DNA from: Dictyophora rubrovolvata
Taxonomy: Eukaryota > Basidiomycota > Agaricomycetes > Phallales > Phallaceae
Direction: 5' to 3'
NCBI GenBank assembly: GCA_029959195.1
Contig: CP114118.1
Span: forward strand, 1,364,001 to 1,428,000
DNA length: 64,000 nt
Shown here: positions 43,931 to 63,307 of the stretch, piece by piece
Position numbering within the stretch: position 1 is the stretch's first letter
Layout: every line of letters begins with the position of its first letter
Notes under the pieces: generated by a model
Told to the model about the DNA's origin: nothing
Databases searched by the model: none
Seen by the model: the letters and a program-made list of their open reading frames with translations, nothing else
Position numbers and translations under genes: made by a program

Positions 43931-44339
43931 CTGTCAGGGCTACTCACTCAGACTAGAGGGAGGGGATCCTAAGTAAAATGTATTTGGTAGAAATACTAAC
44001 TCACCTAGAGGGAGGGGATCCTAAGAGAACAAACTTAGGGATCCCTCCTCTAGGGCTACTAACTATATACTATGAAAAAACGGCGAAGGCCACACGCGGC
44101 CTTCGGTTCATGGACTGGGCGCGGATACGCGCTGGTCCCGGACTTTTAGCTGGGGCCTAGGCCATGGCTCTGATGGGAACGGGCGCTCAGCGCCCATTGG
44201 AGGGAAAGAAGGGAATACAGAAGGAAGGGGGAATGCAGGAAATGGGATAAAATACAAGAAATAAGGAAATGAATAAGATAAACCGGAATCGAAGATAAAC
44301 AAAGGAAAATAAGGGGACGACACTAGCATACCCTGACAG
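43931..44339 (+). mobile_element. 409-bp MITE, copy 1 (inside the Helitron)
   Basis: Ends are inverted: CTGTCAGGGCTA at the left and, read inversely, CTGTCAGGGTA at the right. A 3-bp target duplication AAT flanks it (43928-43930 and 44340-44342). The host Helitron frame continues across the insertion point. The inside is a series of hairpins: CTAGAGGGAGGGGATCC with its complement about 45 bases on, a CGAAGGCC/GGCCTTCG hairpin, and GGGCGCT/AGCGCCC. There is no coding sequence. The superfamily is not identified; 3-bp duplications are known for CACTA and PIF/Harbinger, but the ends match neither well. Confidence 0.85.
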
Positions 44340-48768: not shown

Positions 48769-49425
48769 TCAACTAACTACTAATTATTACTTTAGTCAAT
48801 ACAGTTATGTTGAAGATGGACAGTGCCACTAAGTGTGAGTGCTTGTGTAGTTAGTTTTAGCTTAGTCACACACTCGCCTAAAGGTTCAAGGTGAAGCCTT
48901 GAACTCTTTAGGTGAGCTATTTCTTTTTCATTCTTTTTCTGTACATATCTAATGTTAAAGGCTTCATCTTGAACTCTTTAGCTATATTCTGCTGCTTGTA
49001 ATATAAGCTATATTACTCTAGCTGTTGTTAAGTTATACTTGAACTGTTAGATTAATCTAATATTCAGACTGAAGGTTATAGTGGAAATACTACAGGTTTA
49101 TATATAAATTTAATATAAGGGGATACAAATGAAAGAAGCTCCAGGCAAACTTATTTATAAGTGCTAGATGATTAGTCTTTGCATAAAGACTAGACAAAGT
49201 ATGGATATCTGGATAAAGTATAAATTGGGGAAATAATTAGGATTCAGAATATGAGGCACATGAGTTATAACAGTCAGCAAATTTAGGCTAACTCTACTTA
49301 ATATGAGCTAAAAGTCAAATTCAGAACTCAGGAATGTTGAGGTATTTTGAATACACAGAAATTTAATTTTTAATAATAAATAGTCTTTAAAATCTACTGG
49401 CTGAGATTAAGCCTTGAACACACGC
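48769..49425 (+). mobile_element. Helitron 3' part, left of the inserted LTR-like unit
   Basis: The last ~30 bases (AGATTAAGCCTTGAACACACGC) correspond to the segment just before the terminal hairpin of the first Helitron. The hairpin and CTAG end resume at 51696-51725, on the other side of the LTR-like insertion. The rest of the interval is AT-rich and non-coding, so this is a non-autonomous or truncated Helitron. Confidence 0.6.
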
Positions 49426-50249
49426 TGTAACAATCCGAAGATAATAGCTAAATGTTGTAGCTATATATACAATCGGAAAAACTACGAAGATATTTTGTTT
49501 GAGGCCGTCTAGTCTCCGTGGAGCGGGTCCTGGTGCTGATTTCGTAAGGAGGAGGGTGGGGGAATAATATGATATTTAGTGAGTGTGTGTGCGTTGATAT
49601 AAAACCAACAACAACAAAAAAATGATGATCCTAAGATTGTGTGTGTGTGAGGGGGACGATAAATGTGAGTTGCGATAAAAATGGTGAGTCAATACGCCGT
49701 TGATAATACAGCGATGATAATCTGTTTTAAAGTTAGTAAGGCTTCAACGACAATACGAATCGTTGAGTTTATACTCCGAGGCCTCACTCAGAGTAATCCA
49801 AAGAAATAGACGTGAGCATAGAAATAGACTAGAGACAAAACTTGACTTGAGCTTGACTTAAACTGAACTAAACTTGAGACAACCATTCCGGTAGATTGCT
49901 GCTGTTACAATTATTTACATGCAGTATATATACCATTTGGAAATATAAAGGAAAGCAGAATGATCACTCATCATTTGCCATGATAACAAAAGGAAACAAA
50001 AAGAGAACAAAGAAACAAAAGAAAAAGGAGAAAACGATGGAGGATACAATTACAGAAAAAGGGGAATTGCATATGTGGTTAGGGGGAATAGGAGAAATAT
50101 GTTGAAACAAAAGAGAAACAAAAGAGAAACAAAAAGAGATCAAAAGAAAACAATGAAACCGGATTCCCAGCATATCTTTACCAAAATCACCATCTGGCAC
50201 TTCTCGCGCTACCTCTTACCCAAAACTATAATCTTACCATCCCAAACTT

Positions 50250-50829
50250 CTTACTGATCTGGTTCTTGTTGACGAGGTCTGCTTCTTCGTGGCTGTGGCG
50301 CAATAATAATGGCTATGGCAACACTTAACAATACCAGATCTTGAACAAGATTGGATTGGAGATCGGAATAGGAAGGGAGGGTTTGATTTCCAACAGAGTA
50401 GTCGGGAGGGGATGGGATGGCAGATAGGGGTGCGTCTATGAATAAGAATTGAGTATAACTTCAAAATTGATGACGAAAGACCAGTCTCCAGATTGATTCT
50501 TCTTGACGATTTGTTGAAAGGAACTCGACAAACTCATACGATTCATCCATGACATTGACGTTAGTTCGTTCGTACAGGGTTAAAGCTCATGGATATCCTA
50601 TCTCCAGATCGTCATAAGGAATAGTAATCTCCATTAGTGGCTGTGGAGTAATCGGAAGCATTGTGGAGGGGTCGACATCAATTTCAGAAACAAGAGTATT
50701 GTAAACGCGAAGTCGTGAGAGGAAATTAGGGTTGGGTCCGAATCTGAGAGAAGAACGATATTCAAAAGGGAAGAAAGGGAGTTGAAAAAGGGGAATAGGG
50801 GAAGTAGGAGTATCGTTATTGTCCGACAT
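50250..50829 (-). pseudogene. LTR-unit ORF B, unknown protein (copy A, broken)
   Basis: Counterpart of the 188-residue ORF B of copy B, starting MSDNNDTPTSPI. This copy is broken. The family has no recognised domain. See the copy B entry for its features. Confidence 0.55.
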
Positions 50830-50940
50830 GATGATATGAGTTAACCAAAATTTTCAAGCGCTAATGAAATATCCAAAAAGAAAGAAGGAGATGAAATACA
50901 AATCTAATCGCTTATCCTAATCAAGCCTTTTGTCCTAATT

Positions 50941-51567
50941 TCATCCAAGAAGGTTTGAGCAAACGCGTTGGATCTTTCGGAAGGATCGTTTGGATGGAGA
51001 AGAGGGGAGAGATATTGGTTCTGGCGAATGGGGTGAAAAACAAGACATTTGAGGATCTACAGGAACAAGATTGGCTGGTCTATATGGGCTATGTTTTTGC
51101 GTTTTTATGTTTTTCATGACAACCCAACGACTTGGCACATCTAGAACCAGGAATGTAAATTTGAACCCTTCTTGTGTCACTAACCAAATCCGATATGAGT
51201 CTTTAACAGCTGATTCGGGTGTAGAATAAACATTGATAATTGTAAACCAGTCTAATCGTTCCTCGATATAAACCTTTTCTCCAAACATGAGACCGGGGTG
51301 AACCAAATCCGAACTTCTGCATTGACGAATAATAAGAGGTGGAGGGAACTTCGGGAGGTACGTTTCTTCGTCGATGTCGAGACTCGCATATTGGGAACTA
51401 TAGATATAAAGAGTCGTATGCAGATCCAAATCGTATGTCCTTGGACTGGAAGGCGAAAAACGAAAAGGTGATATAGATTCATTGTCGGAGGGGGGTAATG
51501 ACTCGGTGGGAGATGCTGGAATGGGCAAAGAGATTGATGATGTATAGTGAAATAAAAATGCGGCCAT
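50941..51567 (-). CDS. LTR-unit ORF A, unknown protein (copy A)
   Basis: 208 residues starting MAAFLFHYTSS. A Ser/Pro-rich N-terminus is followed by a mixed alpha/beta core with SLDIDEETYLPKFPPPL and RIWLVTQEGFKFTFLVLDVP, and a basic C-terminus (KRSFRKIQRVCSNLL). No known domain is recognised. It differs from copy B by only a few residues over its whole length, and the frame is open in both copies. Confidence 0.6.
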   Translation of the reverse strand: MAAFLFHYTSSISLPIPASPTESLPPSDNESISPFRFSPSSPRTYDLDLHTTLYIYSSQYASLDIDEETYLPKFPPPLIIRQCRSSDLVHPGLMFGEKVYIEERLDWFTIINVYSTPESAVKDSYRIWLVTQEGFKFTFLVLDVPSRWVVMKNIKTQKHSPYRPANLVPVDPQMSCFSPHSPEPISLPSSPSKRSFRKIQRVCSNLLG

Positions 51568-51695
51568 TTTTTTTTTTGTAAGGGTTTTGATTTCGAGAGG
51601 CTGTGGTGTATCGGTTAAGTTTTTGGTAGTTTGACACTCCGCTTTGAACCAAAAATCAGAACGTTTCCTTATTAGGAAGATTTTGGTGCGCGACA

Positions 51696-51725
51696 ACGCG
51701 TGGCTTGCCGCATATTGGACACCCT
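51696..51725 (+). mobile_element. Helitron 3' terminus, right of the LTR-like insertion
   Basis: GCGTGGCTTGCCGC hairpin remnant, 12-base spacer and CTAG followed by T, matching the first Helitron's end. The stem is split by the LTR-like unit, with ACGC duplicated on both sides. Confidence 0.75.
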
Positions 51726-52834
51726 AGTCTATGCATGAAAAGAGCACGATGACTAAGTAGAAGCCTGACAAATTAATTACCTAATAATTATGTAATACTT
51801 GGCAGGCACTGCGAGGTGTAGCCGAGCATTAGGGAAATGCTGACTGTAAAATGTAATGCTGGCGAATTTACAGTCAGCAAGTCAAAGCACTGCTCTGGCC
51901 CCTTGCCCTCTGCCCCCTCCATCTTGCTCCTCAACTCATACCTTTCTGATTCAATTAGTATTTTTGAAGTGTGTAATTATTCTTTTGATGTTCTCTAACT
52001 GAACTCTGTCTATTTTTTCAGAGAACCACTTGGTTATTTTGAGAGTTTCTGTGTCAAAAAAAAGTGAGTGTTTTTTTTGTGCTCCTGGAATGATTTATTT
52101 AAATATTCTTTAGCTCCTTTATTTCTCAAATCCCCTTCTCTTCCCACACCCTTTTTCTTGGTTTTTTCTTTCTTTTCTAGCTCTCTCTTTCCGTCCTGGC
52201 TTTCTCCCTTCCCTTTCTTTCCTGGCTCTCTCTCTTCCTTCCTTGCTTTCTTTCTGTGTCTTTCTGCTTGGGCTCTTTTGCAAGTTCAACCTTGCACAGC
52301 TTGCTGAGTGTTTGAAAGAGTAAACCTTGGTAGATCAAGCCTATAGTGTGTGAAGTGCGCCCATGCGGCCTTAGTTCGCTGCTGCCAAGTACCTCTCTCA
52401 TGCTGTGGTGTGAGTAGCCTAACTTGGTCTATTTTTGCACAATCTATACTGTCAGATATAGTCTCGGGTCATATATAGGTGTTTATATCTCAGCACTGTC
52501 TGCGGCGAATTCCCTTGGGATGCTGCTTGCTATAGTACTCAGTGGGGGCTCAGCCGGGCTCCATCTAAGCATCCTCCTGGATTTCTGGATTCTTTCTTGG
52601 ACTTGGCTCTTCTTGGCTTTCTTTAGTTCCTTTTAATTCTTCTGTTTTATCGGAAAAATCCCTCTGTCTTTAATGTAAGTAAATTTAATATATTTCTGTA
52701 TTCTATTTTTAACTCTCTTTCATAGCTTATTATCATCTTGCCATCCTATTATCTCCTCAAGACTATTCTATTTATAACAAATATATGTTTATTTTGATTT
52801 TATTTTTTCAATAACTATATTCATGTTATTTCAG
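51726..52834. other. Flanking repeat and pyrimidine-rich stretch
   Basis: It begins with the same post-Helitron sequence as 45960 onward (CCTGACAAATTAATTAC, then a GCGAGGTGTAGCCGAG unit at about 51810). It continues with a CT-rich run (52110-52280) and AT-rich sequence. It may include the 5' end of the second Helitron. No gene is recognised. Confidence 0.45.
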
Positions 52835-52910
52835 AGATCAGCCTAATACACTGGAGCGAAATCAGACACAAGAGCGTGCTGCAGAGCATGCAAATCATAT
52901 TATGACCCCT

Positions 52911-53318
52911 GTGTCAGGGTATGCTAGCACCGTCACCTTATTTTCCTACATTTATCTTCGGTTCTGGTCTATTTTATTTATTTCCATATTTCTCATATTC
53001 TATCCCATCTCTTGCATTTCCCTCTCCTTCTGTATTCCCATTTTCCCTTCAACGGGCGCTGAGCGCCCGTTCTCATCAGAGCCATGGCCTAGGCCCCGGC
53101 TAAAAGTCCAGGACCGGCGCGTATCTGCACCCAGTCCATGAACCGAAGGCCGCGTGTGGCCTTCACCGTTTTTCATAGTATATAGTTAGTAGCCCTAGAG
53201 GAGGGATCCCTAAGTTTGTTCTCTTAGGATCCCCTCCCTCTAGGTGAGTTAGTATTATTCCTAGAATATATTTTGCTTAGGATCCCCTCCCTCTAGTCTG
53301 AGTGAGTAGCCCTGACAC
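52911..53318 (-). mobile_element. 408-bp MITE, copy 4 (inside the second Helitron)
   Basis: Same family as copy 1 but inverted: left end GTGTCAGGGTATGCTAG, right end GAGTAGCCCTGACAC, flanked by the 3-bp duplication CCT (52908-52910 and 53319-53321). The length is within one base of copy 1 and the hairpins are intact. It is clearly close in age to copy 1. Confidence 0.85.
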
Positions 53319-53959
53319 CCTGCTACTGAGAGGCGTGAGCAAGCTTGTGAGGAATTTGTTTTAGATTTAGAATAGGCTTAGTTCCTAATAAAATATAATA
53401 GAGTTTTGTTTAGGAATTGTTCAGCAACTAAAAGTCCTGTTATTGAAGGTGAGACTCTTGAAGGAAGATTTGAACTTAAGAATTAAGTTCAAATTAGTAG
53501 AGATAGATAGAGACTTATTACTAAGTCCTTGAGAATAGAGAAAGATAAGAGGAAAAAAGACCAATTTGATTGGTAAGCACTTTGGTGCACAACAGTAGTT
53601 ACAAGATAGCTTCTTTACAAGAAAAATGAGCCCCTATTTATACACCTTGAGCAAGTACAAATAGCTCCAAACATTAGTAAGAGAAACATCATGTGAAAGA
53701 TAAGAAATTACTTAAAAAGGAAGTGAATGAATAATAGTGGATCAGGGGAAATTATAGTGAGATAGAGAAGTGGAGAGAGATGATAAGAAAATAAAGGGGT
53801 TCCTGGAACTAAGTCATCTGACTGTTCCTGAAAGATAAGATACATTACAAATAAAGGATTATTAAAGCAAGCAGGAACTAAAAAAAGAATAAAGGAAATA
53901 CTTGTTTTTGGGTAGATAAGGGAGGAAATCATGAAATACATGACAAAGCTGCAAATGCT
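53319..53959. other. AT-rich stretch within the second Helitron
   Basis: No protein-like frame is found between the MITE and the Pro-rich coding remnant. It may be an intron or inserted sequence. Confidence 0.35.
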
Positions 53960-54651
53960 CAAAATCGTCAGCCTCCATTACCACCCCCTTTTCCTCAACA
54001 ACCCCCTGCTCCTCAGTCACAAAATCCTAATGCAGATCCTTTTCTGGAACTGACTCCACGTACGATGATTACTCAAATATGAGCTCAACTACCACCTACC
54101 AATCATCCTACACCTATTATTGGATCTGCAGGGATAGTACAGTTACGTGCAACAGCTGATGTCACAATGTTAGTTATGAATACAACTTGGGGTAGAGGTC
54201 GGGGTAGACCAGCACTGCATGCTCCTGAGGTTGGTGCTATAGCTGGACCAAGTTGTAGTCATGGTCATGGTCAGACTAGAGAATGGCTTACACCTGTCCC
54301 TGAAGTTCCAGCAGGATCCAGTCGGGGTTGGGGTTGACCTCCCATTCCCCCTGTTCCCCCTATTCCTCCTGCTCTAGCTCCAGCTTTTGTACCTGCTCCT
54401 CCAGCTCCAGCTCCTCCAGCTCCAGCTTCTGCTCTAGCTTTTGCCCCTGCTCTCCCTGCTCCTGCTCCTATCCAATGCCCTTTACGTTTGCCTATTCATC
54501 CTATTCCTGCACCTGAGCCTGGAAATTATACTCAAGATCAGTTGCAATTCATGAGCTGGCTGCATGTGGAAATATTCAAGATAATATTTCTAGATTTGAC
54601 TGTGGTCCTATGGATATTGCATGTCAATTTTGTGGGGCACTACACTAGAAT

Positions 54652-55266
54652 ATGGAACTTCTTGGTAAATCAACAGCAAATAACTTTCTTTTTGGCGGAT
54701 GCTGTTTGGAAGGAAAAATAGAACTTCCTGAACTACAAGAACTCCCTGTTCCTCTAAATACTCTCCTTACAGATCAGACACATGAGGTGGTTTCATTCAG
54801 GCGGGATATTCGTCGATATAATTCTACTCTTGCCTTCACTTCTTTGCAAGCCACCTTTGATCGTAGAGTATTAGATGGATGTGGACCATATGCACTCAAT
54901 TTACAAGGAGCTTTATATCACAGTCATTATCCTTTCTTGGCACGCCATGATAATCCACAAGATGCTATTTATGCTCAGCTTTATATCTATGATGCTCAGG
55001 TTGCTTATCAAACTAGAATGAATCGAAACGAACAAGCACTCCATGGGCCCACTTTACATGCTTTGCAGGATATGATGGAGGCACATAATCCTTATGTTAC
55101 ACAATACAAAAATACCATACAGTGTATACGTGAAAGTGGTCATAATGATAGGATTCGTATCTTTCTGTCATATGATCAGACTACCGATTGTTATACTCAT
55201 AATTTACCTACTGGGGATGAAATTGCGGCTCTTATTCCTGATGGTGCTTTACTGACACAACCTTGA
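54652..55266 (+). pseudogene. Helitron N-terminal domain of the second element
   Basis: 204 codons with FGGCCLEGKIELPELQ, LAFTSLQATFD, GPYALNLQGALYH, AQLYIYDAQ and LQDMMEAHNP, all matching blocks of the first Helitron's N-terminal domain at moderate identity. Further frames to 55380 (MPLHYVLLFPHGE) extend the match, after a stop at 55264-55266. Helitron family identity is clear; function is lost. Confidence 0.8.
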
Positions 55267-55716
55267 CAGGTTACTATGGAGAGGGCTACAGGAGAGTCTT
55301 TTACTATCTCATCTCTTCACGCTCTCTACATGCCACTTCATTATGTTCTTTTATTCCCTCATGGTGAACTGGGGTAGCATCCTGGCATTGAGTTGTAGAT
55401 ACTAAGTTGTCGCTATCTGGTGTCAACCTAATATACTGCAATAATCTCTAAGATGGAAAGATGATTTAATTCGAATAAAAAATGAGGATTAAATACAAAA
55501 GGTCTGAGGACCACAATGTAAGCTAAGGACATAATAGAAAGACTAAAAATGAGGACAAGAAAGGAGTGTCCGTACGGACAAATGAACAATGAGGACAAAG
55601 AACCTAAATATACTCTAAACGGGCGCTAGGGACCTCGTGTAGGGAGCTGTGCTCCCTTACATCTCCTTGGAACTTTGAATATTGACTGTCCTCGGTCAAT
55701 CGAACTAGAAAAAACA

Positions 55717-56838
55717 TCAAGCCTGCGAGTCATTGACGATGGTGACGGGTATGAGAGTATGAGAACGGGGGTGATATGGAATGACGTGGAAGCCAGCGAC
55801 AGGGGTCTTGAGAACGGCTCTGTCGAGTTCTGCCAGAATGTAAGCACTATTGCATGTTTTACGAACGACGACATAGGGGCCCATGAAATGCGGTTTTGAT
55901 TTCTTGTTCAGGTCTGTGTCTAAGGCAGAGTTGCGCATAAGAACGAGGCTGCCCATCTTGAAATCGTAGTCGACAATAAGGTTCATGTGATCTTTTTCGA
56001 ATTGGGCAATGGACTGGTATCTGGCTTTGAGAACACATTCCTTTATAGTGTCTAGGTCGTCTTGGCGTTTCTCGAGCTGTCTCGTGCATATGATGATGAG
56101 TTCGTCGGTTGTGAGAGCTTTGTCGATTTTCGGGACAAGAAAGGTAGCTTCAGTGACATCAAAGGGGAGAACGGGTTCGACGCCATGGACCATATGGAAT
56201 GGAGAATAGCCGATACTCTTGCGAACGGTGACGCGATCTGCCCAGAATATATATGGAGTGACTTCTGGCCAGCGGGAAATGTTGCCTGTGCAAGCTTTGA
56301 CAATGGATTGGTGGACAGAGCGGTGGCTGCGTTCAACGATGCCATTGGCTTGCTTGTTGTACGGTGAGATACGAATGTGCTGGATGTGGTATTTGTCAGC
56401 CAACCACTTCAGTGCAGCGACGATTGGGGTTCCGTTATCAGTGATAATTTCTTCAATGGTGCCCCAATGACAGATGAGCTCTCGGAAAATGAAATGACCA
56501 ACTGTTTGCACGGTTTCAGAAGTAAGCATGGCATATTCGGCATAACTGGTGAGGGAGCAACGTGCTTGAATGACAAACTGAAAACCCGATGATTTCGGCA
56601 TATGGAATGTATCGAGGTGAATGCGTTTGAACAGAGGTGCAGGCTCTGGGACAATGGGTGGAATAAAGAGGTGTTTCGAAGATTTGACATTCATGGCAAG
56701 TTTTGACATACCAGGCAATGGTGCGGTCCATTCCTGGCCACCAGAACCTATCCACAAGATTTTGTCAGGTCGAAAATGCTTGCTTATGCCCCAATTGGTC
56801 GTGTGCTTGTTTAATAAGGTCGAGTCATTTGGTCGCAT
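55717..56838 (-). pseudogene. Ty3/gypsy integrase part
   Basis: DDE integrase core of the fossil gypsy element: first Asp in HLDTFHM, second in IITDNGTP, Glu in GIVERSHRS, followed by a chromodomain-free C-terminal region with KPHFMGPYVVV. It is part of the broken element. Confidence 0.85.
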
Positions 56839-57648
56839 TGAAAATAACGAGTTGGTGTCTGCTTAAGGGGTGGTGTCACCATAGTTTCTCTTCTCATATG
56901 AAGAATTGTGCCGCATACTTGATGAATCGTTTTAGGCTGTTTTCATCCATATCGGTCAGTTTCGTCATTGTTGTCAGAAATTCGAGTAGTTGTGGGAGTA
57001 ACACGTCGATGCATTTGTCTTTGTCCATTTGCATTAAGGTGAGATCAGAAGGGAAAGGGATAGTATAGGAGTGATTAAATGATGGGAAGAAAGATAGAGA
57101 AAGGGGATTAGAAGGGGGATTTTCGAGATTAAAAACAGGAAAGTGAGCAGGAGAAAAAGAAATGGATGTATCTACTTGAGAATCATTATTTTGAATAGAG
57201 AAAGAAAAGGAAACAGCACTCTCGTTGCATTGTGGGGTTCTCACAGGGTCTGAGAGCAAGACTTGGATTATCTCAACTTTAGATATGTTTCTTTCTGTTT
57301 CTTTTTTCAGAAAAATTATAATTAAAATAATACTATTTGTTCTTATGTATTTTTCCTATTATTTGTAGTTAGTATAATTAGTCTTATTGAAGGGAAACAG
57401 CCTATATGCAGCTGTATCTCTTCTAAACTTGTCTTTCTTTCTTTTTTTTGATTTTAAAGAGTTTTTAGGGACAAGAAGGACGCATTTTTGGCTATAGAAA
57501 GGTTGTTGGGACAGAAATACCTCTAGCATGGGAAGTTCAGACCAGGAGGCTGGACAGGGACATGTCTTCTATTGTGCTCAGAGCCTGGACACCTCTAGGG
57601 CCAAATGTGAGGTATTTTTGGAACAATGGTTGGACTATGCTGGACACC

Positions 57649-58304
57649 TGTTACATACGGTGGCCTGAAGCTATTCCGGATAGTTCCGAAGAAGTCCGGA
57701 CCACGGGGTCAGATGGGAGACAGAGTACTGAAGTACAGGGTGAGGGACTTGGCTTCAACTTATATGTTGCGCCCACTCGCCCAGCTTACGATATCCCTTG
57801 ATTTCGGAATACGAGGAAGTACGCAAGTACGTACAAGTCCGACGACGTGTGATACGATGACAGAGTACTAGTCCACGTTGTCGAAGATGACATGAATGAT
57901 AAGTATGAGTTGACTCAAATGTTAAGTCCGAGCCAACTACACAATACGGATTAAGAGTATGAGACAGACTGGAGATGAGAGAGTAACTGATTAAACTGAT
58001 TATATTCAGACTGAGGATCCACAGCTGGGGAGCTGGGGTTTAAATACAGGAAGGAGTGGAACTACGGAAATGGGGATAACAACAAATAAGGAAAGGTGGA
58101 AACTGACTAGTGCGAGCCAAGATGATGATAATATAATCTAGGTACCTTGTTACTAAGTGCACGGGACAGAATTCCCCATAAGGAAATTCTGTGATATGGG
58201 GTACGGACAAGAACGTGGAGTGTGGAATCGGGGGAGTGGGACGGAATAGAGTACGGAGTTCGGATATGTCCAGATTTGGACTACGGGGCACGCGGGGCGT
58301 GACA
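57649..58304 (-). mobile_element. Solo LTR, family 1, inside the gypsy element
   Basis: 656 bp on the minus strand, starting TGTCACGCCCC and ending ATGTAACA, flanked by the perfect 5-bp duplication ACACC (57644-57648 and 58305-58309). It is the same family as 47476-48132 but with visible divergence. It lies between the RNase H and integrase parts of the gypsy fossil. Confidence 0.85.
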
Positions 58305-58517
58305 ACACCAGGACTTCTGAGTCTTAGTTTTGTATATAAACCCTCTAGTTAGTTCTTATAATAAATAGTTCGGAGTTTTCCCCTTTTTCTCTCTACATTT
58401 GAGCCCCAGAAAGCAAATTTTATTTCCCTTTTCTACTTCTATCCTACTCTCTTTTTCTATCTAAAAGTTCCTTCTAGATATCTTCCTTACTTTCCTGCTA
58501 GAGTGCTTCGGCTCTCC

Positions 58518-59129
58518 TCAGCATGACTGCTTGTGACTCTGAGCGTTCATGGATAACCATGTATCGACCCAAATACCTAAACCCAACTGTTCATCAACCC
58601 ATGTATCCTCCTCTACCTCATCTCCTTCCACAGGTCTTCTTCGCAACAATCCATCAGGGCCTGCATGGTCCCTTCCTGCAATGTGAATGAGTTTGAATGG
58701 AAATAGAAGAATTGCCGCGATCCATTGGTTCATCACATTGTTGGGTTGAACATCGGGGTTGTTGATCATCCCTTTGATATATTTTGTGTCGACTTCGAGG
58801 TTAAAGGATGAGAGTCCAATTAGGTACAGTCGCAGAGCTCAAAGTGCACAATAGACGCCATATAATTCTAACTTAGCTTGAGAGTATCTTGATTCAACAT
58901 CATTCCAAGCAATTGAACTGTATCGTGAAGGTCTTCTCCATCCTTGTGTGTCATCTTGGAACAGGATCCAACCTACAGCAATATTTGACGAGTCAACAGC
59001 AACTGTAACGGTGTGGTTAGAGGCATAATCTAGAGGGACGAGTACCAGTGCTGTAGTGATTTTCTCCTTCAGCATAGCCATCGCTTGCTGTTGGGCTTCT
59101 TCCCAGATGAATGGTGTGTCTTTCTTCAT
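58518..59129 (-). pseudogene. Ty3/gypsy RNase H part
   Basis: It contains the RNase H-like segment LVPLDYASNHTVTVAVDSS, then AVGWILFQDD and SQAKLELYGVYCAL, typical of gypsy RNase H, and farther down FPFKLIHIAGRDHAGPDGL. It belongs to the broken element. Confidence 0.8.
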
Positions 59130-59207
59130 GAGATTTACTAAAGGTCAACTAATCTCTGCATAGCATGCAATAAAAATACGGACTACTCCGCACGTTCCAA
59201 GAAATCC

Positions 59208-60125
59208 TCAAACTTCAGAAACGTTCTGGCAAGGTGGCCAGTCGACTATCTTGGCAATCTTGGTCTCGTCCAGGATGCATCCATCGTAGGTACATACATG
59301 GCCAAGTACTTTAAGCTGCGGAACTCCAATATACAATTTCTTCCCCGAAAAGGTTGTGCCAGCATGTCTGATACAATGTAAGATTTGATTGACATCTTGA
59401 AGGTGTTCCCAAACAAAGCAGCGGATGTAGTGATTTTGAGGAATCGTCTCAAATGAACCGTCATTCAGCTCGTATCGTGATTTGGGGCCTAGGATTGGTA
59501 TGTCATTGGTGAATGGGGTAGTGGTGTCGTCTTCATCTTGCAGTATGAACTGAACATGGCCGTGAAAAATTCCAACAGCATTAGTCCATCCCATCGGGAT
59601 ACAACGAAGACAAAAAGTCCCAATAGGCGTTTGGAACATGGTCAGGTCTCGAGACTGCTCTGCAATCAGTGCATGATCATAGCCGACATAGAGATCACCC
59701 AGAGAATACAGTGCTCGTGCTGCACAATTTTCGACATATGGCTCTATATTAGGAGGGACTGCTGCGTCTTTGATAGTGACTGTGTTAAGTGGTTGTAAGT
59801 CGTGAATCATACACAAATTTTTGTCTGCCTTTGGAATAACAAACCACTTAGATCGATAGGATGAACTTGAGGGCTCGTAGACTCCGCTGGCAATTTTCTT
59901 CTTGATGGTCTCTATCACTTGCTGTCGTAGACCTGGAGGGATCGGGTAGTTTCTCTCTGCCCATGGAATATGCTCGATGGTTGGAATAACGACTGGCGTG
60001 AAGTAGTCTTCTCGGAACGTGCCTCGTTCTTCATCGGTCCAAGCAATAGCACCTTCATTATTCTTCAGCAGAAAGAATACTAACTTGACCTCTTCCTCTG
60101 TAAGAAACTCTTGTCCTATCTTCAA
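59208..60125 (-). pseudogene. Ty3/gypsy reverse transcriptase part
   Basis: RT fingers and palm segments: YPIPPGLRQQVIETIKKKI, SSSSYRSKWFVIPK, MIHDLQPLNTVTIKD, TPIGTFCLRCIPMGWTNAV, and a later thumb/connection segment LKVLGHVCTYDGC. The usual catalytic dipeptide region is altered. It belongs to the broken element. Confidence 0.85.
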
Positions 60126-60491
60126 CGCATTCCATCGTTCTTCAGTAAGTCGATCTGTGAAGCTGGTGATTGGTGGTGGGTTTGGGGTTAAGGGAATAAG
60201 GGATAAAAGGGGGTCTTCAGGAAAATGTCATTTTGGTACAGCCTCTTCTGGCATTGTGGTCGCAACTGGTTTGACTTTCCGATCAACGGGCTTATACTTC
60301 AAGGCAGACTGTGACATTAGATGGCTAGCAAGAAGTAGATTTACCAGTGTGATCTGAGGTATGTCCGATGTCGCGCACCAAAATCTTCCTAATAAGGAAA
60401 CATTCCGAATTTTGGTTCAAAGCGGAGTTTCAAACTACCAAAAACTTAACCGATACACCACAGCCTCTTGAAATCAAAACCCTTACAAAAA

Positions 60492-61124
60492 ATGGCCGCA
60501 TTTTCATTTCACTATACATCATCAATCTCTTTGCCCATTCCAGCATCTCCCACCGAGTCATTACCCCCCTCCGACAATGAATCTATATCACCTTTTCGTT
60601 TTTCGCCTTCCAGTCCAAGGACATACGATTTGGATCTGCATACGACTCTTTATATCTATAGTTCCCAATATGCGAGTCTCGACATTGACGAAGAAACGTA
60701 CCTCCCGAAGTTCCCTCCACCTCTTATTATTCGTCAATGCAGAAGTTCGGATTTGGTTCACCCCGGTCTCATGTTTGGAGAAAAGGTTTATATCGAGGAA
60801 CGATTAGACTGGTTTACAATTATTAACGTTTATTCTACACCCGAATCAGCCGTTAAAGACTCATATCGGATTTGGTTAGTGACACAAGAAGGGTTCGAAT
60901 TTACATTCCTGGTTCTAGATGTGCCAAGTCGTTGGGTTGTCATGAAAAACATAAAAACACAAAAACATAGCCCATATAGACCAGCCAATCTTGTTCCTGT
61001 AGATCCTCAAATGTCTCGTTTTTCACCCCATTCGCCAGAACCAATATCTCTCCCCTCTTCTCCATCCAAACGATCCTTCCGAAAGATCCAACGCGTTTGC
61101 TCAAACCTTCTTGGACGAAATTAG
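60492..61124 (+). CDS. LTR-unit ORF A, unknown protein (copy B)
   Basis: 210 residues starting MAAFSFHYTSS. Ser/Pro-rich N-terminal ~60 residues; core with YASLDIDEETYLPKFPPPL, EKVYIEERLDW and RIWLVTQEGFEFTFLVLDVP; then a KHSPYRPANL segment and a basic C-terminus. There is no signal peptide and no known domain. The core shares ordered residues with ORF B just downstream. The frame is conserved between the two copies of the unit. Confidence 0.6.
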   Translation: MAAFSFHYTSSISLPIPASPTESLPPSDNESISPFRFSPSSPRTYDLDLHTTLYIYSSQYASLDIDEETYLPKFPPPLIIRQCRSSDLVHPGLMFGEKVYIEERLDWFTIINVYSTPESAVKDSYRIWLVTQEGFEFTFLVLDVPSRWVVMKNIKTQKHSPYRPANLVPVDPQMSRFSPHSPEPISLPSSPSKRSFRKIQRVCSNLLGRN

Positions 61125-61229
61125 GACAAAAGGCTTGATTAGGATAAGCGATTAGATTTGTATTTCATCTCCTTCTTTCTTTCTGGACATTTCATTAGCG
61201 CTTAAAAATTTTGGTTAACTCATATCATC

Positions 61230-61796
61230 ATGTCGGACAATAATGATACTCCTACTTCCCCTATTCCCCTTTTTCAACTCCCTTTCTTCCCTTTTGAATA
61301 TCGTTCTTCTCTCAGATTCGGACCCAACCCTAATTTCCTCTCACGACTTCGCATTTACAATACTCTTGTTTCTGAAATTGATGTCGACCCCTCCACAATG
61401 CTTCCGATTACTCCACAGCCACTAATGGAGATTACTATTCCTTATGACGATCTGGAGATAGGATATCCACGAGCTTTAACCCTGTACGAACGAACCAATG
61501 TCAATGTCATGGACGAATCGTATGAGTTTGTCGAGTTCCTTTCAACAAATCGTCAAGAAGAATCAATCTGGAGACTGGTCTTTCGTCATCAATTTCGAAG
61601 TTATACTCAATTCTTATTCATAGACGCACCCCTATCTGCCATCCCATCCCCTCCCGACTACTCTGTTGGAAATCAAACCCTCCCTTCCTATTCCGATCTC
61701 CAATCCAATCTTGTTCAAGATCTGGTATTGTTAAGTGTTGCCATAGCCATTATTATTGCGCCACAGCCACGAAGAAGAAGATCTCGTCAACAATAA
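61230..61796 (+). CDS. LTR-unit ORF B, unknown tail-anchored protein (copy B)
   Basis: 188 residues starting MSDNNDTPTSPI, 105 bp after ORF A. The core has SEIDVDPSTMLPITPQPL, ALTLYERTNV and SIWRLVFRHQ, then YTQFLFIDAP, parallel to the ORF A core. A single hydrophobic helix (LVLLSVAIAIIIA) near the end is followed by a basic tail PQPRRRRSRQQ, suggesting a tail-anchored membrane protein. No known family is recognised. Confidence 0.6.
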   Translation: MSDNNDTPTSPIPLFQLPFFPFEYRSSLRFGPNPNFLSRLRIYNTLVSEIDVDPSTMLPITPQPLMEITIPYDDLEIGYPRALTLYERTNVNVMDESYEFVEFLSTNRQEESIWRLVFRHQFRSYTQFLFIDAPLSAIPSPPDYSVGNQTLPSYSDLQSNLVQDLVLLSVAIAIIIAPQPRRRRSRQQ

Positions 61797-62622
61797 CCAG
61801 ATCAGTAAGAAGTTTGGGATGGTAAGATTATAGTTTTGGGTAAGAGGTAGCGCGAGAAGTGCCAGATGGTGATTTTGGTAAAGCTATGCTGGGAATCCGG
61901 TTTCATCATCTTCTTTTGATCTCTTTTTGTTTCTCTTTTTGTTTCAACATATTTCTCCTATTCCCCCTAACCACATATGCGATTCCCCTTTTTCTGTAAT
62001 TGTATCCTCCATCGTTTTCTCCTTTTTCTTTTGTTTCTTTGTTCTCTTTTTGTTTCCTTTTGTTATCATGGCAAATGATGGGTGATCATTCTGCTTTCCT
62101 TTATGTTTCCAAATGGTATATATACTGCGTGTAAATAATTGTAACAGCAGCAATCTACCGGAACGGTTGTCTCAAGTTTAGTTCAGTTTAAGTCAAGTTC
62201 AAGTCAAGTTTCGTCTCTAGTCTATTTCTACGCTCACGTCTATTTCTTTGGATTACTCTGAGTGAGGCCTCGGAGTATAAACTCAACGATTCGTATTGTC
62301 GTTGAAGCCTTACTAACTTTAAACAGATTATCATCGCTGTATTATCAACGGCGTATTGACTCACCATTTTATCGCAACTCACATTTATCGTCCCCCTCAC
62401 ACACACACGATCTTAGGATCATCATTTTTTTTGTTGTTGTTGGTTTTATATCGACGCACACACACTCACTAAATATCATATTATTCCCCCACCCTCCTCC
62501 TTACGAAATTAGCACCAGGACCCACTCCACGGAGACTAGACGGCCTCAAACAAAATATCTTCGTAGTTTTTCCGATTGTATAGATAGCTACGACATTTAG
62601 CTATTATCTTCGGATCGTTACA

Positions 62623-63307
62623 CCGGGATGTCGTCTGATGGGCAATCTGATTCAATGATGACCAGGTTGCTGTGGCTAGGGTTCCCAAGGTGTGGTCTGG
62701 TTGGGATGCGAATTGTTTTCTTGGTTTGTGGGTCCTTCATAACAAGGGTTTCACCCACGTCTGCTGTGTCGATCTGTCCTACCGACTGGAAGGGACGTCC
62801 GAGGAGGAGCTTGTACAGTGCATTGTTGATAATGAAAGCTTGCACAAACAACGAGATTCCTCCAACTGTCAGTTCTAAATTCTCAATAATACCATATGTT
62901 TCTTTCTCTCCTCCGTTAGCATCCTGCATTGTTAACTTTACATCAGTAGAATGCATGAGTCCGAGTTCCTTCATTGCTTCAGTGCTGATGCAGACAAGTG
63001 ATGCACCTGGGTCATAAATGCCAGTCACATGGTGTCGTCCCTGAATATACAAATTGAATTCTCGTACTGGCAGCATGTGAGGTGCAATTACAGCTGCATT
63101 CACAGTTGCTGTCTTTGGGATTACTGGTGTTGCAATCATGCTCAATGTGGTAGGTACCTGTGTGACTTTGATATCTTCTGTTACGTACGGCGGTCCGGGA
63201 CTATCCCGGATATCTCCGAGAAAGTCTGGACTGCTAGGGACGGATGGAAGATGGAGTACAGAAGTATGGGATGAGGGACTCGGCTTCAGCTTATAAGCTG
63301 CGCCCAC
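62623..63307 (-). pseudogene. Ty3/gypsy protease part
   Basis: Retropepsin-like domain with the active-site segment GIYDPGASLVCIS, a flap region TYGIIENLELTVGG, and LLLGRPF at the expected C-terminal position. The frame begins inside the partial LTR. It belongs to the broken gypsy element and is separated from RT by copy B of the LTR-like unit. Confidence 0.82.

Follow-up and report, generated by a model that had tools for sequence, protein, structure and literature searches.

Mouse mammary tumour virus (MMTV), a retrovirus with gag, pol and env, carries a single open reading frame (ORF), sag, in the unique 3′ (U3) region of its long terminal repeats (LTRs), and sag is expressed from the 3′ portion of the genomic RNA or from a spliced form. 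To our knowledge, protein-coding U3 regions are very rare, and no report of fungal U3 genes of this kind was found in the open-licence literature searched. The closest precedent for the structures described here is crapaud of Podospora anserina, which, according to the available passages of its description, has several LTR subfamilies, variation mostly limited to a U3 that has diverged up to the TATA box, and 1455 terminal repeats compared to 150 full copies (PMC10787394). The terminal pattern TGTNR is that of Gypsy and Ginger elements (available passages of PMC2836005). The current study concerns two LTR-like units in a 64,000-bp stretch of the Dictyophora rubrovolvata genome (contig CP114118.1, positions 1,364,001 to 1,428,000; hereafter the window, meaning this whole stretch), which a preliminary description had taken for solo LTRs of a retroelement family with coding sequence in U3. 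Units of this kind share their ends and layout, lie at single insertions with 4-bp CpG-centred target duplications, include members that switch sequence family at the TATA box, and carry related ORFs with a ratio of nonsynonymous to synonymous differences (pN/pS) below 1. It is somewhat probable that they are LTRs (U3, followed by the repeat and unique 5′ regions, R-U5) of a retroelement group whose U3 of about 1.7 kb holds two sister genes, and that they stand solitary here. The unit behaves like an LTR but is not assignable as the solo LTR of a known retrotransposon, because a full-length partner was sought and not found.

The original observation of two near-identical units was confirmed: window positions 49426-51695 (minus strand) and 60369-62622 (plus strand) align over their full length at 97.2% identity. 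Both start with TGTCGCGCACC and end with GTTACA, and thus have the TGT...ACA form first reported, and the flanking 4-bp repeats and the TATA box about 500 bp before the end were likewise found. The statement that each unit has two ORFs holds for the copy at 60369, where both are intact, and only in part for the copy at 49426, where stop codons interrupt them. The features of the two copies are as follows (window coordinates).

60369..62622, plus strand: unit copy 2 (family A), 2254 bp, TGT...ACA
60365..60368: left flank of copy 2, CCGA, a target duplication with one mismatch to the right flank
62623..62626: right flank of copy 2, CCGG
60369..60386, plus strand: left terminus of copy 2, TGTCGCGCACCAAAATCT, common to family B and almost so in family C
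60492..61124, plus strand: ORF1 of copy 2, 210 aa, intact, with a predicted all-beta domain at about residues 43-154
61230..61796, plus strand: ORF2 of copy 2, 188 aa, intact, with a predicted strand order as in ORF1
62117..62125, plus strand: TATA box of copy 2 (TATATATAC), followed by the motif TGTAACAGCAGCAAT; site of the U3 / R-U5 switch in family C
62145..62622, plus strand: R-U5-like 3′ part of copy 2, 478 bp, no ATG, with a putative start at TATA + 28
49426..51695, minus strand: unit copy 1 (family A), 2270 bp, with partly disrupted ORFs
51696..51699 and 49422..49425: 4-bp duplication of copy 1, ACGC (plus strand), exact
50941..51567, minus strand: ORF1 of copy 1 from its ATG, ending early at codon 209
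50263..50829, minus strand: ORF2 region of copy 1, interrupted in frame by stops at codons 81 and 123; its end was calculated from the length of the intact ORF

The TATA box lies about 505 bp upstream of the right end, at unit position 1749 in copy 2 and 1764 in copy 1, and ORF1 of copy 2 begins at base 124 of the unit. No Rfam match was found in window 60000-63000. Copy 2 splits an older minus-strand Gypsy-type element between its protease and reverse-transcriptase frames. The pieces of this element occupy window 59208-60125 and 62618-63307 (minus strand), with the aspartyl protease on one side and the reverse transcriptase, a match below the Pfam cut-off, on the other.

Further copies were sought throughout the genome holding the window (28.2 Mb, 11 contigs). 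With the unit DNA as query (best 40 of 194 candidates scored), 42 matches were listed, 36 of them spanning query positions 1-2254 at 95-100% identity. Protein queries returned at least 151 matches for ORF1 (150 of 210 candidates scored) and at least 150 for ORF2 (150 of 184 scored), while ORF1 of the most distant family gave at least 70 matches at E <= 1e-20 (150 of 201 scored). After overlapping matches had been combined and assigned to families according to their identity to the query, fragments included, at least 180 whole or partial ORF1-bearing units were counted: 83 of family A, to which the window units belong, 58 of family B and 39 of family C, the ORF1 proteins of B and C being about 31-53% identical to that of A. 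End motifs gave 113 right and 158 left matches, compared to 3 and 3 for a reversed-pattern control (<=3 mismatches). The repetition of the window unit in this genome is far beyond chance. An ORF1 match lies just inside 92 of the 100 left ends listed (of 158); the other 8 comprise three truncated C units (L058, L105, L106), two starts for which a mirror copy and a nested unit account, and three that were left unread.

The layout is the same in the examples of family A (window units, L001-L031), family B (L036-L041) and family C (L034, L035, L042-L044 and others): each begins with the left end TGTCGCGCACCAAAA or a near match to it, continues with ORF1, ORF2 and a stretch rich in pyrimidines, and then has a TATA box accompanied by TGTAACAGCAGCAAT and a TTACA end. 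Uninterrupted examples are 2.20-2.36 kb long, and the TATA box stands 400-505 bp before the right end in those read. The TGTAACAGCAGCAAT motif follows the TATA box in all aligned A, B and C units. All three families have two genes in the U3 position, as first proposed from the window copies. Judged by sequence only, the conserved TATA box and a motif resembling a transcription start site (TSS), both late in the unit, may reflect a promoter-before-R layout.

Flanks were compiled for 63 units, 4 of them without a readable second flank. Among the 59 units with both, the 4-bp flanks are identical in 24, differ only as CG/TG/CA in the middle positions in 25, and do not match in 10; a duplication of fixed length, exact or CpG-decayed, thus accompanies 49 of the 59. 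Varying ends without duplications, which the preliminary description had named as evidence against LTRs, were not what was found. The exact duplications read NCGN in 20 of 24 cases and have TG or CA in the middle in the other 4; CCGG, CCGT and ACGG together make up 9 of the 24. That the units reflect segmental duplication of a host gene pair, and not a mobile element, is extremely improbable: a few copies do lie in inverted duplications (L012/L014 and L004/L005, near-identical neighbour pairs that are not independent, with L012 among the 10 non-matching units), but the sharp ends and the 4-bp duplications at 49 of 59 units contradict this explanation. Nearest-neighbour distances between copies are often about 1% at all sites and 0.1-0.3% with CpG columns masked. 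Much of the decay is therefore of CpG type, a sequence pattern that suggests CpG methylation. The 30 A copies measured are young, with a median terminal branch of 0.18% at non-CpG columns.

Such ends and duplications could also belong to a non-autonomous DNA transposon moved by a cut-and-paste transposase of Ginger1 or PlavakaA type, with the ORFs as cargo. According to the available passages of the respective descriptions, Ginger1 has TGTNR ends, which the units have in similar form on both sides, and 4-bp CCGG or CCGT/ACGG duplications with a CG core (PMC2836005), and PlavakaA elements of Agaricomycotina have TGT..ACA termini (PMC12730594). However, the same passages give Ginger1 terminal inverted repeats of 40-270 bp and a Gypsy-integrase-like transposase (PMC2836005), neither of which was found in the units; no long terminal inverted repeat is present (about 9 of the first 15 positions agree by eye), and the NCGN duplications are not confined to CCGG or CCGT/ACGG. 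PlavakaA, for its part, makes 2-bp duplications, compared to 4 bp in the units, and has its own transposase (PMC12730594). Just 7 of 69 integrase-core matches in the genome lack a reverse transcriptase within 6.5 kb, and no search for other transposase families was made; five of the 7 are frames of 103-224 codons, and the remaining two, of 763 and 934 codons, score the same as integrases next to a reverse transcriptase. In addition, pure cargo is not expected to keep pN/pS below 1. Movement as a DNA transposon is, on balance, quite improbable.

An observation that favours LTRs comes from a comparison of family A with five C units (L034, L035, L043, L044 and L032). In 75-bp windows, identity between A and four of the C units is 0.13-0.76 over the first 1.7 kb (from the unit start where the sequence includes it) and 0.76-1.00 from the TATA box on; in L032, the fifth, it is 0.59-1.00 from the TATA box on. 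Taken as a whole, the U3 of C is 48-49% identical to that of A, while R-U5 is 86-97% identical in L034, L035, L043 and L044 and about 80% in L032. Across the aligned A, B and C units, U3 identity between families is only 45-49%, with the TATA box and TSS-like motif present in all of them. The site patterns of L044 change accordingly: in U3, 732 sites group A with L031, a member of an A subfamily, against C, and 43 group A with C, whereas in R-U5 the counts are reversed (6 and 28). L035 (14 and 26) and L043 (19 and 26) show the same reversal in R-U5, more weakly. In three of the five C units, the 5′ 1.7 kb is thus their own while the 3′ 0.5 kb is A-like, the change falling at the TATA box; the reversed site patterns indicate an A-like element as the source of R-U5 in some C units. 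A switch at this point would be expected of U3/R-U5 exchange during reverse transcription and, as a sequence pattern, favours the LTR reading; the same cause is among those discussed for crapaud (available passages of PMC10787394). Gene conversion at the DNA level may be an alternative source of the switch. The R-U5 of copy 2 (478 nt) additionally contains no ATG, compared to 3.1 expected under a first-order Markov model (P = 0.04). R-U5 regions without ATG occur in 11 of 31 A copies, one C copy and one B copy, the others having up to three, a composition that hints weakly at a 5′ leader role. Separately, the C locus L045 has three ORFs, namely a C-type ORF1, a C-type ORF2 and then an A-like ORF2, so that gene content recombines too.

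The two genes appear to be related to each other. AlphaFold models (ORF1 from 16 aligned sequences, mean predicted local distance difference test score 62; ORF2 from 12, score 68) predict a confident all-beta core at about residues 43-154 of ORF1 and 31-140 of ORF2, with the same strand order, and a comparison of the two profiles gives a weak match spanning 58 columns (hhalign probability 43%, E 2e-4); the predicted proteins are accordingly taken as paralogues. Searches of Pfam and of PDB sequences, Foldseek against PDB (ORF1 and ORF2) and BFVD (ORF2 only) returned nothing at E <= 0.001. The window's ORF1 and ORF2 have no Pfam match; among 16 relatives searched against Pfam, one matched a minor capsid family (E = 0.12) and none a Gypsy-integrase-like transposase, and no relative was found in IMG/VR (ORF1, ORF2) or in GTDB contigs (ORF1). 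The units present a tandem of sister genes of unrecognised fold in the U3 position of three divergent families.

The ratio pN/pS or dN/dS (the corresponding ratio of substitution rates) is below 1 in every comparison made (ORF1 in A, B and C; ORF2 in A and B). Between A and L031, dN/dS is 0.23 for ORF1 and 0.30 for ORF2, and pN/pS is 0.33-0.35. Within A, ORF2 gives 0.60 in both calculations, while ORF1 gives 0.34 in one and 0.61-0.63 in the other, a discrepancy (0.61 versus 0.34) suspected to be due to L024, which has a gap in ORF1. Values for B (both ORFs) and C (ORF1) are 0.43-0.74, with or without CpG masking. Most within-family changes probably arose after insertion, which would pull these ratios towards 1. 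Ratios below 1 indicate that the proteins matter to the element; that they help it, for example against silencing, is a guess. A side observation concerns window 61125-61229, between ORF1 and ORF2, where the family A copies differ from L031 by 0.7%, compared to 5.6-15.7% in other parts of the unit.

Several results weigh against LTRs as the explanation. The preliminary description had looked to paired copies enclosing an internal region with a primer-binding site and gag/pol, and had named their absence as a first reason to abandon its reading; none were found among the units listed in the three families. Among the at least 180 units, pairs 3-15 kb apart include 15 of the same family in direct and 20 in inverted orientation, so direct pairs are not more common than inverted ones, and a reverse transcriptase or integrase in the same orientation lies between the units in none of the 15 direct pairs (13 have neither, 2 have one in opposite orientation). 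By eye, the 12-bp flanks of the 59 units have no common sequence resembling a primer-binding site or polypurine tract, some flanks being alike through sharing a repeat as target. The 30 measured A copies are young, yet none is known in full length; their youth makes a total loss of internal regions noteworthy, although the degree of surprise depends on the recombination rate between 2.2-kb repeats. Three ordinary LTR insertions that were read, one a Gypsy element and the others of two further solo LTR types (read by eye), have 5-bp duplications, not 4-bp NCGN, and the units therefore differ from them in integration geometry. L034 (49 and 21) and L032 (67 and 16) show no reversal of site patterns in R-U5, although in both units the 3′ part resembles A much more than the 5′ part does, and in a leader crossing the joint of right and left ends the depletion of ATG is not significant (P = 0.10-0.12).

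Three of the 15 direct pairs were looked at further, and the other 12 were judged from the listed matches. The 93/99% pair on contig C7 (L031, L013) and a B/B pair on contig C8 were rejected as paired LTRs since they contain units that have a duplication of their own, and between the members of the 91/97% pair on contig C9 (L052, L018) lie a partial B unit of opposite orientation and no recognisable gag or pol frame. Four B units (L053, L054, L055 and L057) lie at different points of one repeat, three of them (contigs C1, C4 and C5) preceding a Gypsy reverse transcriptase that has their orientation, and a target preference of B units for that repeat is possible. These three and one on C8 were rejected as 5′ LTRs: given the different insertion points and the different flanks past their ends, they are read as nested insertions. 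As a positive control, the same kind of search recovered a Gypsy element on contig C8 with identical 600-bp LTRs (L099/L100) about 8.8 kb apart, a reverse transcriptase and integrase between them, and a 5-bp duplication, GGCAG. Its LTRs resemble the units in their TG..CA ends, but differ in size, in pairing around reverse transcriptase and integrase, and in duplication length. The pattern TGTTGTGCACCAAAG (47 matches, 4 in the reversed control) was set aside as it falls inside this 600-bp LTR.

A CpG-centred 4-bp target, together with the lack of pairs even among young insertions, raises the question of whether an LTR-like unit can move alone. The 2.2-2.4 kb unit would then be the whole mobile element, moving singly with a recombinase supplied in trans by another element; its TATA box points outward and, with the ends joined in a circle or tandem, would drive transcription through the joint into ORF1 and ORF2. 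There is little room for a promoter of the ORFs' own, since ORF1 of copy 2 begins at base 124 and 29 of 31 A copies have their first ATG at base 117-139; no paired units were found in the three families, and 49 of 59 units, young ones among them, have their own duplication. Among the 100 listed starts (of 158, three of the 8 ORF1-less ones unread), no autonomous partner with the same left end was found. However, no recombinase match was found for either ORF, a direct joint would place ahead of ORF1 an additional ATG, in most A copies out of frame with it (judged from ATG positions), and a stand-alone unit gives no reason to expect the switch at the TATA box. This explanation is possible but doubtful. 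A further version, in which one U3-R-U5 unit is the element of an LTR-shaped class of its own, copied from RNA by enzymes in trans, inserted at CpG and with its sister genes switched on only when the ends meet, is unlikely.

The interpretation of the units as LTRs is consistent with their ends, fixed duplications, TATA box and TSS-like motif, and U3 / R-U5 switch, and this much of the preliminary proposal stands; the paired partner that solo LTRs imply is what it lacks. Under this interpretation, a retroviral-type integrase would have inserted the DNA by 4-bp staggered cuts on NCGN, RNA would start at the late TATA box, and template switching at first-strand transfer between two packaged RNAs would have produced the C chimeras. 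The U3 proteins would be accessory, aiding the element's own propagation, and might, like MMTV sag, be expressed from the 3′ portion of the genomic RNA or from a spliced form; a protein-coding U3 is the likeness to MMTV as that virus is generally described. The solitary state of the units in this strain may then stem from recombination between identical 2.2-kb LTRs that deleted the internal regions. Crapaud differs in having full copies with gag and pol, and the available passages of its description mention no U3 genes (PMC10787394).

Inverted duplications, recognised by units or pol domains that recur in mirror-image arrangement with the same or almost the same identities, were noted in repeat-rich regions of contigs C1 (about 875.5-900.3 kb), C3 (520-529 kb), C7 (1555-1565 kb), C8 (694-713 kb) and C10 (1383-1399 kb); genuine palindromes, centromere-like structures and assembly artefacts are all conceivable. 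Additionally, a 408-bp repeat, TGTCAGGG...CCCTGACA, occurs at window 52912-53317 and 43932-44338 and is common in the flanks of the units. The copy at 52912 has a 5-bp duplication by eye, and the repeat is probably a solo LTR.

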